Below are positions 1,189 to 30,859 of a stretch of DNA of 64,000 nt, piece by piece (the stretch's first letter is position 1; every line of letters starts with the position of its first letter). A model generated the notes under the pieces. That model ran no database searches and was not told where the DNA came from. It worked only from the letters and a program-made list of their open reading frames with translations. The translations under genes were made by a program, and so were the position numbers. Location: contig NVUJ01000001.1 of the NCBI GenBank assembly GCA_002733135.1, positions 62,001 to 126,000 on the forward strand. The letters are read 5' to 3'. Source of the stretch: Cycloclasticus sp. Its GTDB lineage: Bacteria > Pseudomonadota > Gammaproteobacteria > Methylococcales > Cycloclasticaceae.

Positions 1189-2142
1189 GTGCTAGACAGT
1201 CGCATCATGGTGTTCACCGGTAATGCAAACAAAGCATTAGCTAAAGACATTGCTCGTCATTTAAATATCACCTTAGGTCGAGCCACCGTTGAAACGTTCA
1301 GCGACGGTGAGATCATGATTGAAATTGGCGAGAATGTTAGGGGTAAAGAAGTTTTTATTATTCAATCCACGTGCGCGCCGACGAATAATCACGTAATGGA
1401 ATTATTGGTGATGATTGACGCCCTAAAAAGGGCGTGTGCGAGTCGAATTACAGCAGTTATTCCCTACTATGGTTACGCAAGGCAGGATCGCCGTCCTCGT
1501 TCGGCTCGTGTTCCTATTACATCAAAAGTTGTTGCAAAAATGATTGATACGGCCGGTGCTGATCATGTGTTGACGGTTGATTTGCACGCAGATCAAATTC
1601 AAGGGTTCTTTGACATACCGGTTGATAATGTTTATGCCTCGCCTTTATTGCTGAGCGATATTTGGCAAAGAAAAACAGAGCATCTAATGATTGTTTCGCC
1701 AGATGTCGGCGGTGTGGTTCGAGCCCGCGCTCTAGCTAAACGACTAGACGACGCTGATTTGGCAATTATTGATAAACGTAGACCAAAGCCCAACCAAGCA
1801 GAAGTAATGAACATTATTGGTGACGTCAGCGGAAGAGACTGCGTGATTGTGGATGACCTTGTAGACACTGCAGGTACATTATGTTTAGCGGCAAAGGCGT
1901 TAAAAAACAATGGCGCCCTTAGTGTTAAGGCATATTGTACGCACCCTGTTTTATCAGGAAATGCTATCGAGAATATAGCCGGCTCAGTATTAGATGAATT
2001 AGTTGTAACGGATACCATACCGCTACGAGATGACGCAATAAATTGCAAAAAAATTAGGCAGCTTGGTGTTGCGGAGATGTTAGCGGAAACAATTCGACGG
2101 ATGGTTGAAGGTGATTCCGTTAGTTCGCTATACGTCGACTAA
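1189..2142 (+). CDS. prs: Ribose-phosphate pyrophosphokinase
   Basis: [49 protein letters not shown]-binding motif. Confidence 0.98.
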
Positions 2143-15563: not shown

Positions 15564-15639
15564 TACTTTTAGCTTGTAGTTAGTTTAAATAAAGATTAAA
15601 ATTGTCGGTTTTTGACTGGCCAAATAACGGAGAGAATTA

Positions 15640-15996
15640 ATGGCACGTATTGCTGGTATTAATATACCTGATAATAAGCATATTGTTATTTCATTAACAT
15701 CAATTTATGGGATAGGTCCAACAAGATCGAAATCTATTTGTGAAGCTAGTGGAATAGATATAGCAACTAAAATACGCGATTTATCCGAAGAACAGTTGGA
15801 AACAGTTCGTACCGAGGTAGGTAAATATTTGATTGAAGGTGACTTACGTCGCGAAGTTTCAATGAATATTAAACGTTTACTTGATTTAGGCTGTTTTCGT
15901 GGCATACGTCACCGTAGAAGTCTGCCTGTTCGTGGCCAACGTACTAAAACAAATGCACGGACACGTAAAGGTCCGCGTAAACCTATTAGAAAATAA
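15640..15996 (+). CDS. rpsM: 30S ribosomal protein S13
   Basis: [53 protein letters not shown]. Confidence 0.99.
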
Positions 15997-28498: not shown

Positions 28499-29311
28499 CT
28501 ATTTAAGCGAGTTCAACCAAGTATTGATTGCATTCGCACTTTCTTGCCAATGTGAGTCCAGCATCATCGCGTGACTAGTTTTTTTCATGTTGATGTATTT
28601 GGCGTTGTAGGCTTCAGCAGTTTTTCTTATTTGGGTCGGCCTAAAGAAGGTGTCTTCGTCGGCACCTAATGACAACATCGGGATGTTGAACGGGTTTTTC
28701 TTGGTTGGCAGACCTAGCCATAAGGTGTCGAGTAGTGCTTTGGGGGAGCTGGGTTGCATCTCTGTACAGTAACGAATCACCACGTCGTCGCTCACATCAC
28801 CAGAAAACACAGATTTCCGAGTAACGTCCACGCCTGAAAACAATGTGCCAAATAACTGACTTAGATTGGATTGCATGAACATTGTCGGGTTGAGCGCTAA
28901 ATCCATAATGGATGGCACTAAGCCATCAACCGGTACAGATGCCATTAAAACGCAGGCTGGAACGGTCTTTTTCTCAATATACTTTTGAATAACTAAACCG
29001 CCTAAGGAGTGACCTATTAAGATAGGAGTTGTTCCTATTTCATCAATAACTCGGTGAATGTCGGTGACATAATCAGCAATACTATCCGTAGACATAGTCT
29101 CTTGGCCGCCGCTTTTACCGTGCCCGCGTAAGTCAACAGCATACGTGGGGTGACCAAGTTTACTGAAGTAAGGCATAAATTCTTCATTCCAACACCAGCC
29201 AGACATGTTTGCACCATGAATAAATAGAATAGGTGGTTTTTTAGTCGCTTTTTTTGGGTGATGCTCGATGATATGTAGGCTAGGGTGTTCTGCAGAACGG
29301 TCAATTTTCAT
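28499..29311 (-). CDS. Alpha/beta hydrolase
   Basis: ILFIHGANMSGWCWNEEF; GHSLGG nucleophile elbow; C-terminal KTSHAMML. Confidence 0.9.
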   Translation of the reverse strand: MKIDRSAEHPSLHIIEHHPKKATKKPPILFIHGANMSGWCWNEEFMPYFSKLGHPTYAVDLRGHGKSGGQETMSTDSIADYVTDIHRVIDEIGTTPILIGHSLGGLVIQKYIEKKTVPACVLMASVPVDGLVPSIMDLALNPTMFMQSNLSQLFGTLFSGVDVTRKSVFSGDVSDDVVIRYCTEMQPSSPKALLDTLWLGLPTKKNPFNIPMLSLGADEDTFFRPTQIRKTAEAYNAKYINMKKTSHAMMLDSHWQESANAINTWLNSLK

Positions 29312-29394
29312 TTTGTGGGTGATTAAGTAAAGGTTTAAGTGATTTATTTTTCAAGGGGTTACAGGTAAAGTTTCATCATATGATAAAATAAAGC

Positions 29395-29423
29395 TTGACG
29401 AATATTGCGAAGCAGCATATACT
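29395..29423 (+). promoter_or_regulatory. Near-consensus sigma70 promoter
   Basis: TTGACG (29395-29400), exactly 17 nt, TATACT (29418-29423). Confidence 0.75.
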
Positions 29424-29429
29424 GCTTAT

Positions 29430-29522
29430 CACATTGTTACTACAGACCTGTTTCCCAGGTTCTGTAACTGCGTGATAATGTTCTCCTCCTCTTGGCGACT
29501 CTTTATGGGTCGCCTTTTTTTT
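29430..29522 (+). ncRNA. Putative small RNA or attenuated leader (about 90 nt)
   Basis: Follows strong promoter; TTATCAC...GTTAC..CAGACCTG-TTTCC-CAGGTTCTG..GTAAC...GTGATAA hairpin, TTCTCCTCCTCTT single-stranded stretch, then terminator. Confidence 0.65.
29493..29522 (+). terminator. Intrinsic terminator
   Basis: GGCGACTC-TTTAT-GGGTCGCC followed by TTTTTTTT. Confidence 0.85.
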
Positions 29523-29614: not shown

Positions 29615-30859
29615 TTGATAGGGTTTTTATCACGACTTGTTCATAATGTATTAACGCAGATAAAGTATGTTGAAACAATGAGAAAAAATATAAAAATTCG
29701 ATGGTTGGGTTTGTTTTTGTGCTCGCTAACGTTGGTATTGCCTATGCAGGTTCAAGCGGAGGTGGTCAATGTTAAAGTAGCCTTTCTAGTAGAACAAACG
29801 CCAACACCTCCGGCGTTATCTAATCTCGACCCAGTGTTGACCGATGTCGGTATTCAAGGCGCGACATTGGGCATTAAAGACAATAATACAACCGGGCAAT
29901 TCACGGGCCACCATTATGACCTGAAGCACGTTGACGTTCCGGTGGGTGAGGACGTAGCTTCTGCCTTTAAACAACTGGTTGATGAAGGTTACGAGTACCT
30001 CATCACGTCGGTACAAGCATCAACACTTGAAAAACTAACGCCACTTGCAACAGCGAACAATGCCCTGTTATTTAATGTGGCAGTAGCAGAAGGTTCGCAA
30101 AGAAATGAACAGTGTGGAGCAAATACCTTTCATATAGCGCCTAGTTATGAAATGAGGGCAGATGCGCTAGCTCAGTTTATGTTGAAAAAACGTTGGAATA
30201 AATGGTTTTTGGTAAAGGGAACAGATGCAGAGGATGATTTTTTTGCAGCGGCACTTAAACGTTCGGCAAAACGTTTCGGACTTAAAATCGTAGAAGAAAA
30301 AAAGTGGACGTTTGATCACGATGCACGCAGAACGGCGCAAGCAGATATTCCTGTTTTCACCCAAGGCGAGGATTACGATGTATTGGTCGTGGCCGATGTG
30401 AAAGGGCTATTTGGAGAGTATTTAGCGATGAATACCTGGTTGCCAAGGCCTATTGCAGGTACACAAGGGATGGTTCCAAGGGCCTGGCATAGAACGCATG
30501 AGCGCTGGGGGGCTGTGCAAATGCAAAACCGTTTTTACAAACAGGCGGGTCGTTGGATGAATGATATCGACTATGCGTCTTGGTTGGCGGTGCGAACCAT
30601 TGGCGAGGCGGTGACTCGTGCAAAAAGTGTCGAGCCCCAAAAGTTAAAAGCCTTCATATTAAGTGAGGAATTCAGCGTCGCAGGTTTTAAAGGCACAAAA
30701 CTCACGTTTAGAACGTGGAACAATCAATTAAGACAGCCCGTTTTATTGGCAACAGCACGGTCAATTGTGTCGGTTATGCCGCATAAAGAATTTTTACATC
30801 CACGTACTTATTTAGATACGCTGGGGTATGATAAGCCAGAATCAAATTGCCACCTCTAA
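29615..30859 (+). CDS. ABC transporter substrate-binding protein of PQQ-dependent alcohol dehydrogenase system type
   Basis: Signal peptide (likely start at 29678, MRKNIKIRWLGLFLC); periplasmic binding protein with LLRQPVLLATARSIVSVMPHKEFLHPRTYLDTLGYD-like C-end typical of the PQQ_ABC_bind family. Confidence 0.82.
   Translation: MIGFLSRLVHNVLTQIKYVETMRKNIKIRWLGLFLCSLTLVLPMQVQAEVVNVKVAFLVEQTPTPPALSNLDPVLTDVGIQGATLGIKDNNTTGQFTGHHYDLKHVDVPVGEDVASAFKQLVDEGYEYLITSVQASTLEKLTPLATANNALLFNVAVAEGSQRNEQCGANTFHIAPSYEMRADALAQFMLKKRWNKWFLVKGTDAEDDFFAAALKRSAKRFGLKIVEEKKWTFDHDARRTAQADIPVFTQGEDYDVLVVADVKGLFGEYLAMNTWLPRPIAGTQGMVPRAWHRTHERWGAVQMQNRFYKQAGRWMNDIDYASWLAVRTIGEAVTRAKSVEPQKLKAFILSEEFSVAGFKGTKLTFRTWNNQLRQPVLLATARSIVSVMPHKEFLHPRTYLDTLGYDKPESNCHL

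Follow-up and report, generated by a model that had tools for sequence, protein, structure and literature searches.

A conserved locus ahead of the PQQ-ABC operon in Cycloclasticus sp. is most likely the gene of a trans-acting anti-Shine-Dalgarno small RNA

Does the short intergenic element that precedes the PQQ-ABC operon in Cycloclasticus sp. specify an RNA of its own, or is it a regulatory leader of that operon? The element lies in the window, by which we mean the whole stretch of 64,000 nucleotides analysed here. A first-pass annotation made from the DNA alone proposed a new small RNA (sRNA) with a CU-rich, anti-Shine-Dalgarno (anti-SD) seed and, as the alternative, a 5' leader attenuator. 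We find that the element is real and conserved, and that it is most likely the gene for a trans-acting anti-SD sRNA. The name given to the downstream operon holds, as TIGR03863, TIGR03866, TIGR03864 and TIGR03861 all match above their cut-offs.

The limits of the predicted transcript are set by two signals that had been noted before, and both were recovered. The promoter (-35 box TTGACG, 29395-29400; -10 box TATACT, 29418-29423; 17-nt spacer) matches 10 of 12 consensus positions and is the best of the 6 promoter-like sites that a scan detects within 3 kb. Because transcription is expected to start about 7 nt past the -10 box, near 29430, the RNA would be about 93 nt long. The terminator, GGCGACTC-TTTAT-GGGTCGCC-T8 (29494-29522), is the strongest of 5 terminator-like sites in the scan and, with the U residues before its stem, is a candidate for a typical Hfq-binding 3' module. 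The genome encodes Hfq (103 bits). Table 1 lists the features of the locus.

Table 1. Features of the predicted sRNA locus (window coordinates).
Feature	Position	Strand	Basis
Sigma70-type promoter, TTGACG-17-TATACT	29395..29423	+	Promoter scan; genus alignment
Predicted sRNA transcript, ~93 nt	29430..29522	+	Start placed by distance from the promoter
5' hairpin: outer helix ACATTGTTAC/GTGATAATGT and variable inner hairpin	29431..29481	+	Folds; genus conservation
Unpaired CU-rich stretch, putative anti-Shine-Dalgarno seed, GTTCTCCTCCTCTT	29480..29493	+	26 homologues in four families; fold
Rho-independent terminator, 8-bp stem and T8	29494..29522	+	Terminator scan; pair covariation
PQQ-ABC substrate-binding protein gene (TIGR03863), first gene of the operon, outside the sRNA gene	29678..30859	+	

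The promoter spacer contains a dyad, ATATTGC-GAA-GCAGCAT (29400-29420), that the genus alignment shows to be kept as ATGTTGC-N3-GCAATAT. It is possibly an operator for some repressor of the sRNA gene. The loci of family f4 (L018, L020, L152, L155, L159, L164) carry a distinct inverted repeat, CATAAGA-N3-TCTTATG, upstream of the sRNA promoter; since this differs from the genus dyad, transcriptional control probably differs among families. Paired GCGACAATCTGTCAC-like repeats that resemble activator sites lie upstream of the Methylobacter and Methylovulum copies (L167, L168; ~1580-1660, minus strand). Elsewhere in the window, positions 15591-15672 match the alpha-operon ribosome-binding-site element (Rfam RF00140) at 39.4 bits, barely above the cut-off.

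The 99 nt that follow the -10 box (29424-29522) fold with a minimum energy of -35.0 kcal/mol. The energies of 200 dinucleotide shuffles average -15.1 +/- 2.6 kcal/mol (z = -7.56), and none of the 200 matches the real RNA. The CU-rich stretch TTCTCCTCCTCTT is single-stranded in the fold, as had been proposed, with a mean unpaired probability of 0.87 over 14 nt and 1.00 over the core. The long imperfect hairpin first drawn at the 5' end survives in part. Its inner portion, CAGACCTG/CAGGTTCTG, is confirmed. The TTATCAC/GTGATAA helix assigned to its outer portion is an alternative pairing, in which TTATCAC is unconserved and falls for the most part before the expected start, and the GTTAC/GTAAC pairing is likewise an alternative to the outer helix that relatives keep. 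That helix pairs ACATTGTTAC with GTGATAATGT in both the minimum-energy and the comparative folds. Within the genus 91% of its cells are paired (18 sequences), mainly via G-U changes and with double changes at two pairs; the unpaired cells come mostly from two f7 sequences. A coding function was considered and rejected. The ATG in AATGTTC opens a frame that runs through the terminator, but this frame is not conserved among relatives, because a one-base length change (TCTTGG/TCTTTGG) shifts it and the f4 and f6 copies have no such ATG.

A DNA search of 61 relatives detects the element throughout the genus, and only its 3' half in other families of the order. We describe the wider distribution with R1, a covariance model built on the 3' half (seed and terminator, 48 positions). 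R1 detects a single copy in each of 16 of the 18 genus genomes (10 of 10 near-complete ones), and at E <= 1e-5 it is positive in 58 of the 251 genomes from the order Methylococcales. Matches occur in families f1, f4, f6 and f7 and weakly in f8, where one match (G613) corresponds to the locus found in the Methylococcaceae MAG G621. Those in Methylobacter luteus and in a Methylovulum MAG are also weak. These named genomes identify the order as Methylococcales. In a sample of the class (369 genomes) the sole clear positive outside the order is the gammaproteobacterium G261, with four copies.

Some further elements were seen alongside these. G261 encodes similar RNAs of the form ATCTCTCCTCCTC(C)TTGGCCGACC...GGTCGGC-T8 (L113, L136, L138, L139), two of them in tandem, 166 bp apart. 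One or two extra CU-rich, terminator-bearing elements, possibly sibling sRNAs, lie just upstream of the main copy in the f7 genome G023 (L017, ~1840-2030, minus strand). Other Gammaproteobacteria (L116, L131; ~1450-1570) have elements composed of a promoter, a CU-rich stretch and a terminator (AGTTCTCTCCTCC..., ATGTTCTCCTCCTCC...); these resemble anti-SD sRNAs, either independent or very distantly related.

Across 26 aligned homologues from families f1, f4, f6 and f7, the 14-nt seed hardly varies. It is the most conserved part of the RNA and is unpaired in nearly all of the folded homologues. In the terminator stem 99.5% of cells are paired (7 pairs counted), and 3 pairs have changed on both sides, more than in shuffles. 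These homologues, and the covariation of the terminator hairpin in related genomes, support the proposal of a new sRNA with a CU-rich anti-SD seed. Copies in f4, f6 and f8 have a 5' part that is unrelated in sequence and a seed that is still largely unpaired; thus, the seed and terminator together form the conserved unit, the pattern that a base-pairing sRNA of the Hfq type should show. Terminators are common, and the core model also matches plain ones at low score, so that the element could in principle be no more than a conserved terminator that belongs to an upstream gene, or a chance match. We regard this as extremely improbable, given that the seed lies outside the hairpin and equals the stem in conservation, that homologues keep the promoter and the RNA length, and that the preceding gene in the window (28499-29311, minus strand) is directed away from the element.

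The gene neighbourhood bears on whether the RNA belongs to the PQQ-ABC operon. Most members of the genus, and f7, have it ahead of the PQQ-ABC substrate-binding gene, and in the window it is co-oriented with the operon, 155 nt before the first gene, with no other convincing sigma70 site in the intervening gap (gap scan). This arrangement would suit a 5' leader attenuator, in which the promoter drives the operon and transcription passes the terminator under certain conditions. In the congener G016, however, the RNA is located away from the operon, as it is in f4, f6 and f8. It adjoins a TonB-dependent receptor gene in f4 and f6, and further homologues lie near ksgA, citrate synthase or an aminotransferase (neighbours in families beyond f1 and f7 were named by inspection of their sequences). 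Between RNA and operon the gap (92-197 nt) is unconserved whereas the RNA is conserved, and neither the consensus fold nor the gap alignment, viewed without a dedicated search, shows a conserved antiterminator pairing of the terminator stem. Because the RNA occurs elsewhere in relatives and the gap is not conserved, we consider an attenuator of the PQQ-ABC operon very unlikely. Conservation tracks the RNA rather than the operon, and the changing neighbours argue for an independent trans-acting sRNA.

We predict that this free-standing gene produces a trans-acting, probably Hfq-dependent anti-SD sRNA that blocks translation of carbon-use mRNAs, a reading in which we have good confidence. The fold, the conservation, the covariation of the terminator, the independence from the operon and the hfq gene are all read from sequence; transcription, Hfq binding, repression and targets are inferred. 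The sRNA would be transcribed from its own promoter and ended at its own terminator. Its unpaired GUUCUCCUCCUCUU would then pair, probably with assistance from Hfq, with GA-rich Shine-Dalgarno regions in a restricted group of mRNAs, whose translation would be blocked once these regions are masked. Genes that serve the uptake and use of carbon substrates are the likely targets, fadD being the best candidate.

The target screen covered 436 gene starts of the same genome, from the window and 400 kb of sampled stretches. At fadD a 13-nt perfect complement, AGGAGAACATTAT, spans the Shine-Dalgarno sequence and the start codon. This is the longest match among the 436 starts; of 500 shuffled seeds, one attains this length. 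The start region of the fadD orthologue in G011 (86% identical) carries GGAGGAGAATATCATG; the fadD pairing is seen in these two genomes only. Directly upstream of fadD is fadL, whose start pairs over 9 bp with one G-U (by eye). For the small subunit of a Na+/substrate symporter (TIGR03647), all 13 genomes measured give pairing energies between -10.4 and -17.1 kcal/mol, and the gene always ranks in the top 12.5% of window genes, but it was chosen because two genomes matched, and strong Shine-Dalgarno sequences alone would yield part of this signal. Starts with a GGAGGAG site that recur between genomes include those of ring-hydroxylating dioxygenase beta subunits (G004, G005, G017), the symporter small subunit (G000, G015), acyl-CoA synthetases (G008, G011) and sdhD (G004, G008). 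As the candidates were picked from many genes, each single prediction is weakened. Two were rejected as conserved targets: sdhD pairs perfectly only in G004 and G008, and pmoC/AmoC genes have ordinary AGGAGGT or weak Shine-Dalgarno sequences with no special match. The genome itself encodes several AmoC/PmoC-type copper monooxygenase subunits (e.g., G000:C24:19323-20036 and G000:C4:57755-58426), fitting a short-chain hydrocarbon oxidiser; the genus also carries ring-hydroxylating dioxygenases and several copper-monooxygenase-type clusters, gene content that fits a Cycloclasticus-like genus.

The seed pairs with average gene starts no better than shuffled seeds do, and GGAGGAG ahead of an ATG shows no enrichment (132 matches vs 124 for the reversed pattern in 11 genomes). 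A general anti-SD blocker is thus out. Lacking a global excess of pairing, the RNA would be selective, with few real targets or with partial pairing. That ribosome-binding sites with a perfect match are not in excess across the genome is also in line with a different role for the CU-rich stretch, as a protein-binding site (Hfq, Rho or S1) or a sponge site that pairs with GA-rich, CsrB-type RNAs, and there is a precedent in the alphaR8 sRNAs of Caulobacter, which pair with a GA-rich loop of the sponge CrfA (PMC12559287). We judge this role unlikely, since the exact order of the 14 nt, including the 5' G, is invariant across families, beyond what a pyrimidine tract needs, and in view of the 13-nt match at fadD.

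Returning to the seed as an mRNA-pairing region, a more far-reaching version would have the sRNA govern carbon use throughout the order, in methane- and hydrocarbon-oxidising Methylococcales, as a separately arisen gammaproteobacterial counterpart of MmgR, NmsR and Spot 42. By masking the ribosome-binding sites of fadD/fadL, the Na+/substrate symporter, ring-hydroxylating dioxygenases and sdh, it would repress fatty-acid, organic-acid and aromatic catabolism. We offer this version tentatively and hold it to be rather doubtful. A single-copy RNA whose seed is near-unchanged across families while its other half is replaced nonetheless offers a directly testable candidate for how these bacteria, which are of environmental and biotechnological relevance, might control carbon use post-transcriptionally.

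Is the RNA already known under another name? Our survey of the open-access literature found no described sRNA like it in methanotrophs or Cycloclasticus-like bacteria, a search of a plasmid collection with the element gave no match, and no Rfam family reaches its gathering threshold at the element. The best Rfam score is that of suhB/MmgR (RF00519), 20.5 bits vs a cut-off of 41, and this model has no match in 18 homologue loci. Judged by its sequence, the RNA is a new family of the CU-rich anti-SD sRNA class, shared by methane- and hydrocarbon-eating bacteria. Spot 42, which represses carbon-use genes, is a possible functional parallel only; its pairing regions and regulation differ from those of the window RNA, and its Rfam model does not match the element.

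Other likenesses lie in the way that sRNAs reach ribosome-binding sites. The double-hairpin RNAs of Burkholderia (ncS27; RF02278) are very short and multicopy, with two hairpins and unpaired CU-rich sequence complementary to ribosome-binding sites, and a role in carbon metabolism has been suggested (PMC5688073). They share this principle with the window RNA, although RF02278 (Betaproteobacteria toxic small RNA) matches neither the element nor its homologues. The NmsR/NgncR siblings of Neisseria also use unpaired CU-rich stretches, to block the ribosome-binding sites of central-metabolism mRNAs (PMC9973317, PMC5688073). NmsR, however, is a betaproteobacterial system of tandem siblings with several stem-loops and two pairing regions, whereas here there is one seed between hairpin and terminator and a single copy per genus genome. 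The alphaR8 family (MmgR of Sinorhizobium, SisA-D of Caulobacter) comprises short, Hfq-type sRNAs, sometimes with several siblings, that are tied to carbon status and consist of a 5' hairpin, an anti-SD stretch (UUUCCUCCCU) and a Rho-independent terminator (PMC12559287, PMC7143759). The window RNA folds into the same parts in the same order: hairpin, single-stranded anti-SD stretch, terminator. Its core is GUUCUCCUCCUCUU rather than the single-stranded 10-mer of alphaR8, and it is gammaproteobacterial rather than alphaproteobacterial. Given the different core 10-mer, the sub-threshold RF00519 score and the lack of a match in the homologues, it forms a separate family in the material searched, and would thus add a further case, in a separate lineage, of anti-SD sRNAs that share one layout.
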